Shown here: positions 3,453-12,892 of the stretch, piece after piece
Layout of the letters: every line of letters starts with the position of its first letter
How positions within the stretch are numbered: position 1 is the first letter of the stretch
Source of the DNA: a virus
Length of the DNA stretch: 64,000 nucleotides
Virus record (IMG/VR): IMGVR_UViG_3300044844_000854
Coordinates: 1-64,000 of that record
Reading direction: 5' to 3' (one strand)
The notes under the pieces: model-generated
What the model saw: the letters and a program-made list of their open reading frames with translations, nothing else
The model's database searches: none
Told to the model about the DNA's origin: nothing
Made by a program: the position numbers and the translations under genes

Positions 3453-4208
3453 ATGGATGACACTTTAGATACATTGCAATTGATTAAAGACAATCTTGAG
3501 CAAAACAAAATTACAACTAGCACTGCTAAATCTCAATTACTAGATGCAATTCGTGATGGTATTGTGTTTGAGGCAATCTATGACTTAGAGAGATTGGATT
3601 GCACTACATCTTATCTTAGAGATAATGGTCAAGGCGATCAACATTTAACTAACTTGTTTCGTGATTTCTTAGATGAACATCATGAGTCATATTTTGGTAT
3701 TGCTAGAGCAAGATTTACTCAACTCTATAAAACAATCAAGATTGAACTCAAACACTATGCAGAACATGAATATGACTTTAACAATCAAGCAATAGAAGAA
3801 ATTGAATGCACAGAAGATGTTGAAACATCACTTGCAAATATCAAGCATGAATTACAAGAACTTCTACATATTTGTGATGATTTTAGCGATATTGATCAAA
3901 GAATGGAACAGGATATTGCAGTCATGTATAACAATATCAAACTTATCCAAGATCGTTTTTGTGCTAATCACAACACTAGACTAAAGCACCATAAAGAAGA
4001 TATTATTGCTATCTTTCATGATAAACAAGCTTCGTGCCTTGATTATTTAGATTTGGCTATGTTTATTGTTGATGCTATCTATGATAAAGAAAAAACAAGT
4101 GAAATTGTCGTTGAATTTGGATTTTCAGGTGCTGATCAAAAGATGGTTGAATTTATGACTAACATTAAACAAATGGTTGAAGATTTCAATAATAGTCGTA
4201 AGGCATAA
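3453..4208 (+). CDS. Hypothetical acidic helical protein, 251 aa
   Basis: Not recognised. The reading frame is open from 3417, but the ATG at 3453 has AAAGGA at good spacing and gives MDDTLDTLQL; the upstream ATG has no ribosome site, so 3453 is preferred. The protein is acidic, helical and cysteine-containing, with no membrane segment. It resembles its upstream neighbour (2346-3266) in composition and helix-rich layout. It may have its own weak promoter: a TATATT hexamer lies at 3378-3383. An A-run/CGGA element follows at 4223. Confidence 0.8.
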   Translation: MDDTLDTLQLIKDNLEQNKITTSTAKSQLLDAIRDGIVFEAIYDLERLDCTTSYLRDNGQGDQHLTNLFRDFLDEHHESYFGIARARFTQLYKTIKIELKHYAEHEYDFNNQAIEEIECTEDVETSLANIKHELQELLHICDDFSDIDQRMEQDIAVMYNNIKLIQDRFCANHNTRLKHHKEDIIAIFHDKQASCLDYLDLAMFIVDAIYDKEKTSEIVVEFGFSGADQKMVEFMTNIKQMVEDFNNSRKA

Positions 4209-4293
4209 TTTACTTAAAAAAACGGAATGTTAAAAAACCATCATATACACAATAGTAATCAATAGAATGATATTCTAGAAATTTACTACTATC

Positions 4294-4310
4294 ACTAAGG
4301 TTGATATACT
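4294..4310 (+). promoter_or_regulatory. Extended -10 promoter candidate before the DUF3846 gene
   Basis: CACTAAGG followed by TTGATATACT gives an extended -10 (TG, one base, TATACT at 4305-4310). CACTAAG stands at the place where the promoter at 163-191 has CACTTAG. There is no good -35. It would drive 4375-5457. Confidence 0.5.
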
Positions 4311-4374
4311 TAACCTATCTTAAATGATTGAATGATCAATCAACACAACAACACACACACAAGGACAACATGAA

Positions 4375-4629
4375 ATGAAAGCCTTACTATACCCATACGA
4401 TAGCGACCCTCAAGTAATCACAATCCAAGCATTTACAGATGCACAAGAATGTGTCGGTGGCATTGTAGAAATCCAATACAAAGGTGATGCAGAATTATTT
4501 GTATTCAATGAAGAAGGAAGAATTATGGAACTTCCACAAAATAAACACTATCAACAGTTTGTTGGCAATGTTTTGGTTGTCAACAGAAAAAAATTCGATA
4601 ATCTACCATTTGGCATACAAGGAGTTTAA
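4375..4629 (+). CDS. DUF3846-like small protein, 84 aa
   Basis: The layout fits DUF3846, a small domain common in phages and conjugative elements with no known activity: a short N-terminal strand with basic and aromatic residues (MKALLYPY), the core VGGIVEIQYKGDAELFVFNEEG at about residues 28-49 (shown here in two parts: VGGIVEIQYK and LFVFNEEG), then a LPQN turn and FVGNVLVV near the end. Those features (VGG-IE, a NEEG turn, GLPxN, a final GxxLVV) are what I recall of the family. AAGGACAA lies upstream of the ATG. The stop codon abuts the next ATG at 4630, so the two are translated together. Confidence 0.7.
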   Translation: MKALLYPYDSDPQVITIQAFTDAQECVGGIVEIQYKGDAELFVFNEEGRIMELPQNKHYQQFVGNVLVVNRKKFDNLPFGIQGV

Positions 4630-5457
4630 ATGCTAAACTATTTCGATTTAGATGCAGGCGATCATAAAAATGTAAGTTATGGTCAGCAATTCTACTCACA
4701 CCTTCAGCAAAATGCTCATATCTTTACTTATAGGATTGACAAGCTAACTAAAACCAACAGTGCTGAATGGGAACAAGAACGATCTCAATGGAAACTTGAA
4801 GCTGATTTGATTTGCACAGCCGTTCGTGATGTAAAAGCTGATATTAGTGATTTCACACCACAATATGTAAATGGTATCAAATTGATTGATCATGCTCTAG
4901 TGATGTTCACAGATAAACACAATGATCATGCAACATTTTATACTGTATCTAGACATGGTGCACCTAATGGTCAGCACATTGTTGTTCAATCACATTTGTT
5001 TGATAGTTACTACAAAACATTGCGATATTGGTCACAACAGAATGTAATCCGTCAGCCTGATCAAGCACTTCATGTTCTTTCTATTCTAGATTATTTCTAT
5101 AGAAAATCTGATGGTGAATTTTACTATGGTGAATTTTACTATGGTGATTGGTACACTTATGACACTCTTGGTTATCATTATGACTTTGATACTGTCAATG
5201 TACCTAGCACTAGAGAACTTGTACAACAATTGGGAAAAGGTGTACCACTTGCTACATCTCTAGAACTTGACAAAAAGGAACTAACACCTACTAAACCATT
5301 GTATTACAAAGATACAAACACTCTTATTGAGAACTACAAAGAGAAACAACGATACTTTGAAATGGTCAGAGATCTTCAACTTTGTCATGATGATGAAGAT
5401 ATGGAAGAATTTGATTTCAATGCAAGTGATTTGTTTGATGATGATGACTCTTTCTAG
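4630..5457 (+). CDS. Hypothetical protein with acidic tail, 275 aa
   Basis: Not recognised. The ATG follows the upstream TAA without a gap, and AAGGAG stands eight bases upstream inside the previous gene, so translation is coupled. The middle is rich in Tyr, Phe and Trp. A 15-bp exact tandem duplication (5116-5130 and 5131-5145) adds an extra EFYYG unit near residue 165. The last 25 residues are strongly acidic (DDEDMEEF to DLFDDDDSF). This kind of tail is common in phage DNA mimics and in proteins that bind basic partners, but no function can be assigned. Confidence 0.8.
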   Translation: MLNYFDLDAGDHKNVSYGQQFYSHLQQNAHIFTYRIDKLTKTNSAEWEQERSQWKLEADLICTAVRDVKADISDFTPQYVNGIKLIDHALVMFTDKHNDHATFYTVSRHGAPNGQHIVVQSHLFDSYYKTLRYWSQQNVIRQPDQALHVLSILDYFYRKSDGEFYYGEFYYGDWYTYDTLGYHYDFDTVNVPSTRELVQQLGKGVPLATSLELDKKELTPTKPLYYKDTNTLIENYKEKQRYFEMVRDLQLCHDDEDMEEFDFNASDLFDDDDSF

Positions 5458-7280: not shown

Positions 7281-7380
7281 TTAAAAAAACGGCACATTAA
7301 AAAACAATCATATTTTAGATATGACAAAATGTTAGCTAATAAACTAACAGACACAACCAAAAAAAACGGAGCATTAAAAA

Positions 7381-7662: not shown

Positions 7663-8237
7663 AGAACAGCACCACAGCACCACATGAAAAAACGGAACAT
7701 CAAAAAACGGAATATTAAAACACTTTTTTAGATACCCCCCTATATACAATATAAGAATAACACACTAAAAAAACGGAACTTTACAAAACCCCCCTTAATA
7801 ATTAGATTACCCCTCATATATGTATATCTATAGTAATATTAGCATAGACACAATAAAGAAATTATTCTAATTTTACACTAAATCCACAACTTTAGATCAA
7901 ATTTCAAATATTCTCTACTAGAGTAAATCATAAAGCCAATCCAATAAATTCTAAGAAATGCCCTATTTATCGGGGTTTGCGACTGCTTTCGTCCCTTCCG
8001 TTTCTTTAAAAGTATGGTTTTCTAGGGGGTAAAATATAAGAGGTTGTATTCATTTTCAATCAGGTTTTACATGATTTTTTATTTGCCTTATAGAAAAGAT
8101 TTATTTATATGTGTTTTTGTCGTGGTTTTTTCGCCCTATCTTGTCTTTTAGAAAGTGATGATCAAAAGATAGTAAATCATGACCGTTTTTTTTCCCCTTT
8201 TTCCCCTTTACTCTTCTTTTATAGTAGGTAAAAAATC
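7663..8237 (+). other. Intergenic stretch with repeated leader elements and a strand-composition switch
   Basis: No convincing gene of ordinary size. It holds three A-run/CGGA elements (7693, 7708, 7774) far from any start codon, and one reversed copy (TCCG at 7997). At about 7.95 kb the + strand changes from A-rich to T-rich. A 20-codon leader ORF and a duplicated start-codon region lie at 8174-8246. Confidence 0.6.
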
Positions 8238-8241
8238 ATGA
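8179..8241 (+). CDS. Possible 20-aa leader peptide overlapping the next gene
   Basis: An ATG at 8179 opens a 20-codon frame, MTVFFPLFPLYSSFIVGKKS, whose TGA (8239-8241) overlaps the ATG of the next gene at 8238 (ATGA). The 14 bases around its start (8174-8187) repeat exactly around the next gene's start (8233-8246). This is either a leader peptide giving translational coupling or the trace of a duplicated start region. The ribosome site in front is weak, so translation is unproven. Confidence 0.35.
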   Translation: MTVFFPLFPLYSSFIVGKKS

Positions 8242-9131
8242 CCGTTAAAAAGTCAATTAAAAATCAAGCTGTTCAAGTGCCTGTTGTTGCCACTGTTCAA
8301 GCTGTTGAAACTTCTAAAGCTGTTGATTTTGTTCAAGCTGTTGTTTCCCCTGTTGAAAATGCCGTTGCTGTTGGTGGTACGGTTGCCGTTTCTTCCCCTG
8401 TCGCTGTGGTAAAGTCTATTTCTTTAGATATTATCAGCCTTATCAATGCCCCAAAAACTAAAACTATCAAGGTTGATCAGCCTAAGAAAGAAAAATCAGC
8501 ATTTAAGAATTTGAATGATCAGTATCATGACTATATCAAATTTTCTTTGTCTGTTTTTGGTTATGTGGCAAGTTTAAATGATGTTAAATCTTTGTGCCGT
8601 CTATCATCAGATTTTGACGATGCTTTTTCTAAGTCTGTGCTAAAAAATGGGCTTGGTTCTGTTGATCATGATGATAACTATTCTGGTAAAATCCTGTTTT
8701 CTGGTTGCCCTGTTGTGTCATTGGTTGATCATCAATTCTTTTGCTATTCTAAAGCTTATAATGATGACTTGAAAGATAAAAATCATGCTGGTTTATATAG
8801 CTGGCAAGTCGCAAAGTTTCTCAAAGCTTTATTGATTGCTCAAGCTGTGAAAAATCAAAAGTCTTTAGAGATTGCCCCCCCTTCAAGTTGTCCTTTTGTT
8901 TCGTTATCTTGGGCAAGCTATTGTTCAGCATTCAAATTGCTAGGCTGTGAAAAGATGAGCATTCAAAAGATTGACCATCTCAAAACAAAATTTGACGGTG
9001 CTTTAATTGACAGTATAAGCGAAGATTTACTTGATATAGATATTCAAGGGCTGTTTAATGCTGTTTTAAATTTTGCCCCTGTTGTTGCTGTCCCTGTTGC
9101 TGTCCCTGTTGCCCCTGTTGATAACAAGTAA
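8238..9131 (+). CDS. Hypothetical protein with Val/Ala-rich ends, 297 aa
   Basis: Not recognised. AGGT lies about ten bases before the ATG. The first 65 residues and the last 20 are low-complexity Val, Ala and Pro (for example VVAVPVAVPVAPV at the end), encoded by CTGTTG and CTGTCC repeats. The middle (about 85-270) is an ordinary mixed domain with several Cys and aromatic residues. Codons are T-rich (GTT, GCT, TCT), unlike genes on either side, which suggests separate ancestry. The low-complexity ends appear to have grown by repeat expansion. Function unknown. Confidence 0.65.
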   Translation: MTVKKSIKNQAVQVPVVATVQAVETSKAVDFVQAVVSPVENAVAVGGTVAVSSPVAVVKSISLDIISLINAPKTKTIKVDQPKKEKSAFKNLNDQYHDYIKFSLSVFGYVASLNDVKSLCRLSSDFDDAFSKSVLKNGLGSVDHDDNYSGKILFSGCPVVSLVDHQFFCYSKAYNDDLKDKNHAGLYSWQVAKFLKALLIAQAVKNQKSLEIAPPSSCPFVSLSWASYCSAFKLLGCEKMSIQKIDHLKTKFDGALIDSISEDLLDIDIQGLFNAVLNFAPVVAVPVAVPVAPVDNK

Positions 9132-9393
9132 AAAATCAGCCTGTTCTTCCACTCATAACAAAAGAAAGTTTAATCTATTGTCAATAACTTATAAGTTTGT
9201 TGATAGCTTAGAAGAAATTACAAAAGTTAAAAATTCAGTTTATCAGATTTCAAAAGATAGCTTTGTCATCAATGAAAATATGATGGTTTTTAGCTGTCTA
9301 GCTAGTCTTGAATACGAGCTAAAAGAAACTAAAAAAATTGAATTGGTTTTAACCTGTAAAAATAGAAATTTTACTTGTACCATAAAAAAGTAA
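9073..9393 (+). CDS. Overlapping ORF of uncertain start, at most 106 aa
   Basis: The open frame begins at an ATG inside the CTGTTG repeat of the preceding gene, in the +1 frame relative to it, and the first 20 codons are pure Leu/Pro/Ser repeat. Only the part from about residue 33 onward looks like real protein (SITYKFVDSLEEI, then alternating hydrophobic strands to CKNRNFTCTIKK). No ribosome site supports an internal start. It could be a separate small gene with a TTG start near 9178, or a frame-shifted continuation of the gene at 8238. Function unknown. Confidence 0.4.
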   Translation: MPLLLLSLLLSLLPLLITSKKSACSSTHNKRKFNLLSITYKFVDSLEEITKVKNSVYQISKDSFVINENMMVFSCLASLEYELKETKKIELVLTCKNRNFTCTIKK

Positions 9394-9404
9394 AAAGTTT
9401 CTAG

Positions 9405-9454
9405 GCTGTCCCCTGTTGCCCCTGTCCCCTGTTGGCTGTCCCTGTTGGCTGTCA
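9405..9454. repeat. CTGTCC/CTGTTG low-complexity tract
   Basis: The + strand is built of CCCTGTTG, CCCTGTCC and GGCTGTCC units between two small ORFs. The same units occur inside the end of the gene at 8238 (9076-9122) and in the large array at 10373-10521. Confidence 0.7.
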
Positions 9455-9520
9455 ATGATAACTCAAAACACTAAACACTAAACACTAAAAAAAAGAAAAG
9501 AAAACAGTTTTAAAAATGGT

Positions 9521-9545
9521 AGCCGTCTAGAATGACGGTTTTTTT
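9521..9545 (+). terminator. Rho-independent terminator
   Basis: AGCCGTC (9521-9527) pairs with GACGGTT (9534-9540), with one G-U pair, around a six-base loop and runs into seven T. It ends the transcription unit containing 8238-9393. Confidence 0.8.
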
Positions 9546-9599
9546 ATTGCCTGTTTTCTTCCCCTGTTTCCCCTGTTTTCAATAAGGTAAAAAAACACG

Positions 9600-10283
9600 A
9601 TGAAAACTACTTTTAAAGATAATGTTCATATGACTTTTAAGGCTGTATATTGCTTAAATGAATTAGTCAATGGATCATCATTTTTACTTAGTCCCTTGAA
9701 TGATACTAGCAATATCGTTGCAATGGTAAATGATACAGTTATCAATTTTCATTCTTGTAAAGCTGTTCATTTTGATGAAAAACTTTATTATAAAAATGAG
9801 AATGGATTTAAAAAACTCTGTCAATCAGTTATTTTTAAATGTAAAAATGATTTGAATGCTTCTCTGTTGGTTCAAGTATTTTTTGATCAATATCATTACA
9901 ATATCAATGAACATACAAGTTTTGAATTTAATAGAATGTATGATATTTCTTTAGAATGGGCTGTTGAAGGTCAATCAGAAGATTTCATCTATTCTTCATT
10001 TATTCATCATAAAAAGAATTTACTTGTTTTTTATCCAGCTTTAAGCCGTCAAGCTTTCTTATTTGGCTATGAAATTGAATTAAGTTTAATCGAGTTAAGA
10101 AAAGACAGATTAGTCAATGAACTAGCTATTAAAAATCTTGAAAATAAACAAGATAAAATTCTTTTAAAGTTTCTTGTTCAAAACTTGATCCACACTCAAA
10201 AAGAAATTTATTCAAGATATAATAATGATCAAGTGATTGAAATTGAGCATCACTATTTAAACAAAGTTTTAAGAAAAATTTAA
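9600..10283 (+). CDS. Hypothetical protein, 227 aa
   Basis: Not recognised. AAGGT precedes the ATG at about 12 bases. The protein is soluble, with frequent Phe, Tyr, Asn and Lys, a beta-rich first half and helices in the last third (ELRKDRLVNELAIKNLENKQ region). Codon use is T-rich like the gene at 8238, and both sit in the island with CTGTT repeats, so they probably arrived together. A terminator lies upstream at 9521-9545, so it should have its own promoter, but no clear one is visible. Confidence 0.7.
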   Translation: MKTTFKDNVHMTFKAVYCLNELVNGSSFLLSPLNDTSNIVAMVNDTVINFHSCKAVHFDEKLYYKNENGFKKLCQSVIFKCKNDLNASLLVQVFFDQYHYNINEHTSFEFNRMYDISLEWAVEGQSEDFIYSSFIHHKKNLLVFYPALSRQAFLFGYEIELSLIELRKDRLVNELAIKNLENKQDKILLKFLVQNLIHTQKEIYSRYNNDQVIEIEHHYLNKVLRKI

Positions 10284-10372
10284 GGCTGTTCACTCACTAG
10301 CAAATAAAAAAACTGTCATCTATCCTATATAAATTCTTCTGTTGCTGTTGCTAGTGTACCATAATAAAAAAT

Positions 10373-10521
10373 CCTGTTGGCTGTCGCTGTTGCTGTTGGC
10401 TGTCGCTGTTGCTGTCGCTGTCGCTGTTGCTGTTGCTGTTGGCTGTCGCTGTTGCTGTTGGCTGTCGCTGTCGCTGTCGCTGTTGCCTGTCGCTGTTGCC
10501 TGTTGCTGTTGCCTGTTGCCT
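10373..10521. repeat. CTGTT/CTGTC microsatellite-like array
   Basis: About 150 bp of the + strand consist of GCTGTT, GCTGTC and GCCTGTT/GGCTGTC units with no interruption. Frames through it give only low-complexity peptides, so I do not call it coding. It lies in the island whose genes carry the same units and is followed at once by the complementary array at 10528-10607. Confidence 0.9.
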
Positions 10522-10527
10522 ATCCAC

Positions 10528-10607
10528 ATGAAAACAGCATGACAGCATAAGACAGCATGAAAACAGCATGAAAACAGCATAAAAACAATACAACATGAAA
10601 ACAGCAG
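10528..10607. repeat. Array of inverted AACAGC/GACAGC units
   Basis: Six or so units of the form ATGAAAACAGC or ATGACAGC follow each other. AACAGC and GACAGC are the reverse complements of the GCTGTT and GCTGTC units in the array at 10373-10521. Together the two arrays form a large imperfect inverted repeat able to fold in many registers, separated only by CTATCCAC. Confidence 0.85.
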
Positions 10608-10884
10608 AAAACACATAAAAAGACAATTTAAAACATTCATTTTAAGATAGTTTTAGATCTAAATTTTAAAACCTATAAAAAATTCAAGTAGGTAGTTATA
10701 GGTTTATATATGCTCAAAAGTGATAAATCCCAATGCTCAAAAATTCAATTTAAGCCACCTTTTAGCTCGTTTTTGTGGTGATAAATGCATACATTCTTAT
10801 TATAGTATCAATCATAATCTATTGTTTAAAGAATGCTTTAAAATGCTTGCTATATGATAAGAATGCATGACTTGAACTGATAGA

Positions 10885-10908
10885 TGATATAAGGTGACTT
10901 GTCAATAA
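10885..10908 (+). promoter_or_regulatory. Second copy of the early-promoter -10 and leader
   Basis: TGATATAAG, GTG, CTTGTCAAT, AATGA in order nearly repeats the sequence at 183-209 (TGATATAAT, GTG, CTTGTCAAT, GAATGA). It is an extended -10 (TATAAG at 10888-10893) without a clear -35. Transcription from here would enter the gene-poor region. Confidence 0.45.
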
Positions 10909-11753
10909 TGAATATTTAAAAAGTATGTTCTAAGTATATCACAAGTAAAAATGATAGAGTGATAACATAAAAATGATAGTAGTGATAAATGCTAAAAGGT
11001 ATTAAATCAATATAAACAAGAGAAAGAGATATAAAAGTAGATTGAAACTGATGGTAAGAATAAAGGTATAAATTTTTAAGGGGGTGTATATATGCACCGT
11101 TTTTTTGGTAGTGTTTAGGTATAAAATGAACAAGTTGACCATATGAAAAATGAGAAAGGCTGAACACGACTCGCAGTAAAATATAAACTTTTTAGTGAAC
11201 ATGATACTGAACATGAGCCCAAAACAAATGATAATAGAAAAAGATACCCCCCCCCATGAGAAAAAAAATTAAAAGAAAAGAACACAATCGTATGCCTGCA
11301 GGTACTCAAGGCACAAATGGTAAAAAATGGCTATGGTAAAAAACGGAAGGGAATAAAACCAAACTACTTCTAGCTATATAATAATATGTGATACATTATA
11401 ACAATGAATAGTCAATCAAGTTACAATGATGGTATAAACTAAAGGCACAACAAACATAATCAAGAAAACAATAAACATAATCAAGTGATGGGTAAAGAGA
11501 TAGCTAAAGAATGGTAATAAAATGGTCAACCAATAGCACATGATCAAGTAACATACTAAAAAACTGAATGGTAAAAATCCAAACAATAATTCTCTAGCTA
11601 TATAAGTAAAGTATAGTGATAAGTAATAGCTAAAGAGTAGACAATCAAGGCAGTATAATGGTTAAGCATAAAAGTAAATAGTCAATCCAAAGAATAGTCA
11701 ATCTATGGTATGGTTATGGTTATGGCAATGGCTCAAGTGTTATGGCTCAAGTG

Positions 11754-11762
11754 TGATATACT
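11754..11762 (+). promoter_or_regulatory. Extended -10 element TGATATACT
   Basis: The nine bases are identical to the extended -10 at 4302-4310. The element stands about 30 bases before the structured stretch at 11790-11840. No -35 is apparent. Confidence 0.35.
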
Positions 11763-11789
11763 AAAGGTTGGTTATCGACCAAAAAAGAT

Positions 11790-11840
11790 GAAGTAGTGTG
11801 AGTGGCAAGCACCTACTCTTTACACTAGAGTGCCTGTAAG
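11790..11840 (+). ncRNA. Possible structured RNA element, copy 1
   Basis: The stretch can fold with GGCA pairing TGCC and CTCT pairing AGAG around TTACACT, with an eight-base bulge on the left side. A partly similar element sharing GAGTGGCA and CTTTACACTA lies at 12305-12355, where CCC/GGG and AGTG/CACT can pair instead. The pairing is different in the two copies, which weakens the case. It resembles no RNA family I know. Confidence 0.25.
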
Positions 11841-12454
11841 AATACTAAGGTAAAAAAATGTGATGATAAAAAACTAAGGTAAAAAAAGTTATATGCATAA
11901 AATTGTGAAGAGAATATGCAGAAAGATTGGAAAAAGTGTAGAAAGAAAAAATGTGAATGTGATAAATGCTCAAATTTCTAGCAAATATGGATAAAAATGG
12001 ATAATAAAAAATGGTGGTGTAAAAATGTGGATAAACTACAGGCACAATGATTGAATGTTCTAGCTATATAAATTGCTAAAAATGGAATGTGAATAAAATG
12101 GATATGAAAAAAATGGGAAATAAATAAAGGTAAATAAAGAGAATGACATAAACAAACTAAGATAAATAAAGAATGGTATAAAAAGAACAAGGGCTCAAAT
12201 TGTCTTTAGCAATGGTAACTGTAAAAATGTATAGAAGAGAAAATATAGAAAGTGATAATGAAATGTTAAGTGATAAATGCCTATTTAGGTAAATAAAAGG
12301 TTCGATAAGGAAAATGAGAGTGGCAGAAAATCGCCCCCAGTGAGCTTTACACTAAAGGGTATAAAAAAAAGTTGAATAAAGTGGAAAAAATGATAAAGTA
12401 GGTATGTCATTCAATAACAATAGAGAAAAAATGGAATGACAGAAAGAGAAAAGA

Positions 12455-12892
12455 ATGTATAGAAGTTCAAAAACGATAGGCAATTTACCATGTGCCCACA
12501 GGAGATGGCGACACAACGGTCATTGTAAGTGGGTGCATGGGTACTCTAGGTCATTTGAATTTTGGTTTGAGTCTGATAATCTAGATGAGATGGGATTTGT
12601 TGTTGATTTTGGTGGATTAAAATGGTTACAAGAGTGGCTATTGTCTAAATATGATCATACATTACTGATAGATGAGAGTGATCCGTTGTTACCAATGTTT
12701 TTAGAATTGGAAGAAAAAGAAGGTTGCAAATTAACTGTCTATGAAAATGTAGGAATGGAAGGAAGTGCAGAGTATGTTGGTAGCTATGTAAAAGAAAAGC
12801 TAGAAGAATTATATGGTAACAGAGTAAGGCTAATCAGTGTAGAGTGTCGTGAGAATGACAAGAATAGTGGGGGGATATGGTATTCAAAGTAA
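12455..12892 (+). CDS. queD: 6-carboxytetrahydropterin synthase homologue (QueD/PTPS fold), 145 aa
   Basis: QueD converts dihydroneopterin triphosphate, the product of FolE, to 6-carboxytetrahydropterin, the second step of 7-deazaguanine synthesis. The PTPS pattern is clear: CAHRRWRHNGHC at residues 13-24 (first zinc His and catalytic-type Cys24), VHGYSRSF at 27-34, FVVDFGGLK at about 48-56, YDHTLL at about 66-71 and a C-terminal ECRENDKNS. The usual HGH carries Tyr in place of the second His (HGY), a variant I recall from phage and cyanophage homologues. Length is normal for the family. It starts the operon with 12877 and 13268. FolE lies at the far end of the window. The specific DNA modification is an inference. 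Confidence 0.85.
   Translation: MYRSSKTIGNLPCAHRRWRHNGHCKWVHGYSRSFEFWFESDNLDEMGFVVDFGGLKWLQEWLLSKYDHTLLIDESDPLLPMFLELEEKEGCKLTVYENVGMEGSAEYVGSYVKEKLEELYGNRVRLISVECRENDKNSGGIWYSK

Follow-up and report, generated by a model that had tools for sequence, protein, structure and literature searches.

What does an array of CTGTT and CTGTC repeats do when, after a few bases, it runs into its own reverse complement, as happens near 10.5 kb in virus record IMGVR_UViG_3300044844_000854? We analysed the first 64 kb of this 104,574-bp record (the window; the record's two ends overlap by 52 bp), and whole-genome counts combine the window with the remainder of the record, read as regions. The phage of this window is called W, and related records carry L-numbers. 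The collections searched yielded a sole close relative, L004 (IMGVR_UViG_3300032293_001366), which overlaps about 54 kb of W at 97–98% identity, except in the gene cassette that contains the array and in a second divergent stretch near 4.0–5.2 kb. We tentatively favour, at somewhat short of an even chance, the reading that this is an oriented, allele-specific recognition array, which belongs to a fast-evolving cassette next to a putative replication origin and which a protein of the cassette would recognise, as DNA or as RNA.

The array and its five-base word

The array is real and non-random, and the layout given in a preliminary description was confirmed: 23 plus-strand words, a spacer of 7–8 bases and six minus-strand words. 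The left arm, in which 14 words are CTGTT and 9 are CTGTC, was resolved by Tandem Repeats Finder (TRF) into 23.2 copies of period 6 (consensus CTGTTG), with 6- and 7-nt units mixed. Right-arm words lie at 10533, 10541, 10551, 10562, 10573 and 10600, reading as AACAGC/GACAGC on the plus strand, and a period-11 unit (CATGAAAACAG) spans 10527–10587. Dinucleotide shuffles never came close to the observed counts, yielding 2.6 ± 1.4 words for the left arm (maximum 7) and 0.98 ± 0.88 for the right arm (maximum 4). An exact 22-base piece of the array had no second match in the 104,574-bp genome, and no similar pattern was found in the viral contig collection. Two minus-strand open reading frames (ORFs) that cross the array (10320–10640 and 10351–10626) were judged an artefact of its 6-nt periodicity and span no equivalent array in L004.

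The array is not an isolated hairpin; CTGTY (Y, T or C) pervades the sense strand of the adjoining cassette. The preliminary description overlooked that between 8.27 and 10.35 kb this word, nearly always on the plus strand, fills the tails of ORF1 and the gene spacers (Table 1). In the 2.6 kb of cassette left of the arms it occurs 41 times on the plus strand and 3 times on the minus strand; the corresponding shuffle values are 7.4 and 2.2. Elsewhere in the genome the minus strand has more copies than the plus strand (107 plus, 181 minus). Within 358 bp of non-coding and tail sequence of the cassette outside the left arm, CTGTT was found 13 times where 0.33 would be expected, and CTGTC 7 times where 0.04 would be, whereas all 26 one-mismatch neighbours together had 5 occurrences; spacers between the words vary from one sub-array to another. 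ORF1 contains 21 words, compared with 14.5 ± 2.1 after permuting codons among synonyms, a count reached in none of 1000 permutations. The same permutation applied to ORF1 of L004 gave no enrichment for the word (5 observed, 6.6 expected). These counts point to a preference for the word at the nucleotide level, which is not proof of function.

Turnover of the cassette between near-identical phages

Identity to L004 falls to 78% in the cassette leader, 47–65% in the three genes and about 35% in the array, and returns to 90–100% from 10.6 kb. Divergence in this part of the window is restricted to 7.8–10.608 kb, with its right edge at 10609 by BLAST, exactly where the right arm stops. At the position of the array, L004 holds ATCAATCTCAATCAGTG and AGTGTTTTATC repeats, all direct and of other sequence, so that the two phages have short repeats at this place in common but not the inverted arrangement. 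Absence of the second arm from relatives had been named in the preliminary description as evidence that would count against its proposal, and absence is what the one close relative presents. Because a near-identical phage has quite different repeats at the same place, the repeats are a variable feature rather than a conserved hairpin.

The genes around the cassette hardly changed with it. Late genes of myovirus type are encoded in the window (TerL, portal, major capsid protein, tail sheath and baseplate), and the record beyond it encodes polymerase A, a DnaB-like helicase, a primase and a UvsX-like recombinase. The trans-acting genes for packaging and replication are located outside the cassette and, as far as L004 covers them, differ very little; TerL is 100% identical and its neighbours are 97–99% identical, while the array was replaced. 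A reader encoded among TerL and its neighbours would thus have lost its site. Given that genes and repeats change together only in the cassette, and that trans-acting genes outside it are nearly unchanged, a reader of the array, if there is one, is likeliest encoded in the cassette itself. The same comparison argues against the packaging site proposed earlier, and a terminase pac site was rejected, since the array is not conserved together with TerL.

Apart from L004, no homologues of the cassette proteins were found in phage records, viral contigs or bacterial genomes, and homology of the W and L004 cassette genes to their counterparts in L005 and L006 was not detectable. Third-position T in ORF1 (0.53) and ORF3 (0.50) is similar to that in the capsid (0.52) and sheath (0.48) genes, a codon-level likeness that may reflect strong expression.

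Hypervariable genes also occur in L005 and L006. In L006, two TGTTTCACGTGAAACG sites (3551 and 4883) flank such a gene upstream of TerL; the site agrees in 15 of 16 bases with the bacterial parS (ParB-binding) consensus. Palindromes of sequence TTGTACAA flank the hypervariable gene in L005 (3239–4971, 4 copies) and L006 (3451–5001, 7 copies), although the gene itself is only about 29% identical between the two.

Table 1. Features of the cassette and of the adjoining tract (window coordinates)
Feature	Position	Strand	Description
Hypervariable cassette	7800–10608	+	Three orphan genes and spacers; 47–78% identical to L004, 35% in the array; 90–100% on either side
ORF1	8238–9131	+	297 aa, orphan; word-bearing Ala/Pro-Val-rich tails; 58% aa identity to L004
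ORF2	9130–9393	+	~65–87 aa, orphan; 43% aa identity to L004
Spacer sub-array	9404–9453	+	CTGTC/CTGTT with CCC and TGG spacers
Intrinsic-terminator-like hairpin	9521–9550	+	ORF2–ORF3 spacer
Spacer sub-array	9551–9577	+	CTGTT with TTTTC/TTTC spacers
ORF3	9600–10283	+	227 aa, orphan; 30% aa identity to L004
Inverted pair CACTAGCAA...TTGCTAGTG	10295–10356	+	Between ORF3 and array; CTAGCAA...TTGCTAGTG retained at the same position in L004
Left arm	10374–10519	+	146 bp; 23 CTGTT/CTGTC words, every one on the + strand, 6–7 nt apart
Inter-arm spacer	10520–10526 (to 10527 with final C)		~7–8 bases, CTATCCA(C)
Right arm	10527–10608	-	6 CTGTT/CTGTC words, all on the - strand, last ending at 10605
Non-coding tract	10609–12454		Purine-rich; ~97% conserved in L004; contains GC-skew jump (11.5–11.7 kb)
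Short shared element GCAAGCACCTACTCTTTACACTAGAGTG	11805–11833	+	W version of the CYTTTACRM element; second CTTTACACTA at 12345

A putative origin to the right of the array

The region right of the array looks like a replication origin. No long ORF was found between 10.6 and 12.45 kb, and alternative coding of this 1.8-kb tract was rejected given its dense stop codons in all plus-strand frames. The largest purine/pyrimidine strand switch of the 104.5-kb genome falls at 10530, between the arms, or at 10.83–10.95 kb with the array cut out. GC-skew jumps of 0.30–0.59 were also found upstream of TerL in L004, L005 (identical to L030), L006 (identical to L031), L037, L038, L047, L050, L075 and L086; the further relatives used in this comparison have TerL proteins 50–65% identical to that of W. 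In L009, L037 and L075, consecutive minus-strand ORFs lie on the G-rich side, indicating that gene direction does not determine the skew, which looks replicative.

In W, L005, L006, L037, L038 and L075 the CYTTTACRM element coincides with the jump or lies near it, and GCAAG stands just upstream of the element in W, L010, L037 and L075. Relative to random positions, individual probabilities were 0.02–0.19 for a motif picked after the sequences were seen, and we regard this as moderate evidence. The origin that the preliminary description had listed as one possibility for the array is partly supported, by the strand switch between the arms and by the GC-skew jump in a conserved tract with equivalents in relatives, but the shared element sits outside the array, at 11.8 kb. 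One perfect and two near DnaA boxes at 11986–12088, together with one near box between the arms, are suggestive but do not exceed the genome background of 60 one-mismatch sites; the box between the arms (CTATCCACA at 10520, one mismatch) is probably due to chance.

In W, L004, L005, L006, L037, L050 and L075, short arrays of unrelated sequence are located no more than about 1.8 kb from the jump; no array was found near it in L038, L047 and L086. At the jump itself, L037 (4456–4590) and L075 (3352–3486) carry tandem units of about 38–40 bp with a common core (GGTTATGTCCA/CACTA) amid upstream DNA that does not align, making these units candidate conserved iterons. L037 also has 14 copies of an 18-bp unit (ACTGAACGCTTGTATAGT) at 1861–2113. 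GAGCGC/GCGCTC arrays or clusters were seen in three relatives, namely L047 (1–119), L008 (21–94 and 5208–5335, in opposite orientations) and L038 (near 100).

Weighing the readings

If the array is a recognition array, it would be the end, and the densest part, of a set of oriented CTGTY words that is specific to this phage and belongs to the three-gene cassette abutting the putative origin. A cassette-encoded protein would read these words, binding either DNA or sense RNA, and this binding would control the operon or the start of replication at the adjacent origin. Turnover of the word could come about by swapping, or by word and reader co-evolving fast. That the words keep largely to one strand over 2.2 kb fits recognition of sense RNA or single-stranded DNA better than an ordinary double-strand site. 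A more elaborate version, which we consider quite improbable, holds that each phage of the lineage marks the strand of its hypervariable origin-side module with its own 5-nt word, favoured at synonymous codons, reversed at the strand switch and recognised by a protein of the module that co-evolves with it, so that sister phages infecting the same cell could neither use nor inhibit each other's origin.

Several results weigh against a recognition array. ORF1–3 have no Pfam or PHROGs match and no known domain, and the AlphaFold models of ORF1 and ORF3 (pLDDT 29 and 40) were not good enough to reveal a DNA- or RNA-binding fold. Neither L004 nor any other relative conserves the CTGTY words, and a double-strand DNA site would need no single-strand bias over 2.2 kb. 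The shared element lies 1.2 kb right of the array and not inside it, and array-to-jump distances across relatives were only moderately better than random.

As in an iteron origin, the array consists of tandem direct repeats in non-coding DNA. The purine-skew maximum (10530) coincides with it, but the GC-skew jump and the shared element are at 11.5–11.8 kb, and the 5-nt core and 6–7-nt period of the left arm fall short of an initiator site of about 18–30 bp. Chi, KOPS and primase start sites are skewed, oriented words that reverse at origins, and are genome-wide and conserved among relatives. CTGTY is likewise short and one-stranded, with an orientation that changes at the strand-composition switch; unlike those words, it is restricted to one phage and, there, to 2.3 kb. 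Among documented systems, the closest parallel for a joint change of repeats and reader is found in the PLE satellites, in which RepA covaries with its origin and only cognate pairs are functional (PMC8263062, PMC7145576). As in that iteron-type module, the repeats of W lie in a non-coding tract, and repeats and nearby genes are replaced between close relatives while the remainder is unchanged. In contrast to PLE iterons, the word of W has 5 nt and 23 + 6 copies, keeps to one strand and extends into genes, and no initiator was recognised among the orphan ORF1–3. Given that the repeats differ in size and kind, we do not file the array as a member of this class.

If the recognition-array reading is correct, the locus would provide a candidate origin, with a strand switch and a short shared element, for an unclassified, uncultured group of large phages, and its origin-side repeat module would turn over completely between phages otherwise 97–98% identical. 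Short origin-side words as phage-specific recognition signals, comparable to the swaps of PLE RepA/origin modules, would then become testable.

The main rival, which ranks close behind and which we regard as a serious if doubtful candidate, is non-functional local repeat growth in a fast-evolving cassette, whereby the spacers would be unconstrained, the Val/Ala/Pro codon repeat of ORF1 (GCTGTT/CCTGTT) would have seeded the word, and slippage and template switching would have copied it into the spacers and, inverted, into the right arm. The unrelated repeats at the same place in L004, the low-complexity Ala/Pro-Val tails of ORF1 as natural seeds, and the short, unrelated arrays that recur in spacers of relatives are all consistent with such growth; so are the higher-order periods of the repeats (13, 19 and 25 nt), which are typical of slippage. 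Neutral mini- and microsatellites in phage spacers similarly have short tandem units and higher-order periods and vary between relatives. However, only T/C at position 5 of the CTGTY core varies, one-mismatch decay products being missing even where sub-arrays differ in their spacers, and ORF1 uses the word in preference to synonymous alternatives, while over 2.2 kb the word is one-stranded. Slippage in a neutral spot, already raised in the preliminary description, remains a rival, but the strictly kept pentamer amid changing spacers and the synonymous-site enrichment argue that it is not the whole story. Were the repeats neutral, they would illustrate cleanly how a five-base word can spread through the spacers and codons of one cassette.

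We consider an RNA-level element unlikely. The operon mRNA would present dozens of CUGUY sites to an RNA-binding protein or small RNA, serving autoregulation or stability, with a 3' RACAG tail that masks or competes for them. The words do lie on the sense strand of the operon, synonymous sites included, and an intrinsic-terminator-like hairpin at 11083 would stop a plus-strand transcript running through the array. The right arm pairs with the left somewhat better than shuffled right arms do (-38.5 kcal/mol against -28.1 ± 4.7, about 2 standard deviations), although the best of 60 shuffles reached -40.5. Against this, the whole array region folds no better than dinucleotide shuffles (z of +1.1 as RNA and +1.0 as DNA), and an Rfam scan of 7.6–12.7 kb returned no family at gathering score; on these grounds a structured RNA or hairpin origin was rejected and the earlier suggestion of a non-coding RNA found no support. 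Type III toxin-antitoxin arrays have repeat RNA units of about 30–40 nt upstream of the toxin gene, with a terminator between. An assignment to this class was rejected given the 6–7-nt units and their placement downstream of the genes.

That the two arms form one large cruciform or hairpin serving as an origin, recombination or packaging (pac) site, as first proposed, is very unlikely: the inverted arms do sit at the strand-composition switch and upstream of the terminase genes, but pairing between them is limited to words of about 6 bp with unequal spacing (6–7 versus 11 nt), the modest gain in arm–arm energy is accompanied by folding at shuffle level, L004 is without the inverted arrangement, and the array was replaced while TerL and its neighbours stayed unchanged. 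An assembly artefact is barely credible even though the record is metagenomic and repeats are error-prone in assembly, since the units are heterogeneous (T/C; 6 versus 7 nt), CTGTY is also present across 2 kb of unique flanking sequence and within an ORF, and the flanks of the array are collinear with L004.

Three further observations concern the genome at large. At 4000–5200 of the window, identity to L004 is low or gapped (40–81%), and L004 holds about 1.2 kb of extra sequence there. A QueD-like gene at 12455–12892 and a queuine tRNA-ribosyltransferase-like gene in L013 (3796–5415) suggest 7-deazaguanine modification of DNA or tRNA in W. Finally, AAAAACGGA is present in 68 copies on the plus strand and 5 on the minus strand across the genome (for example at 7362, 7688 and 7703), is largely missing from the cassette genes and often stands directly upstream of ORFs, where it is probably a translation or promoter signal.
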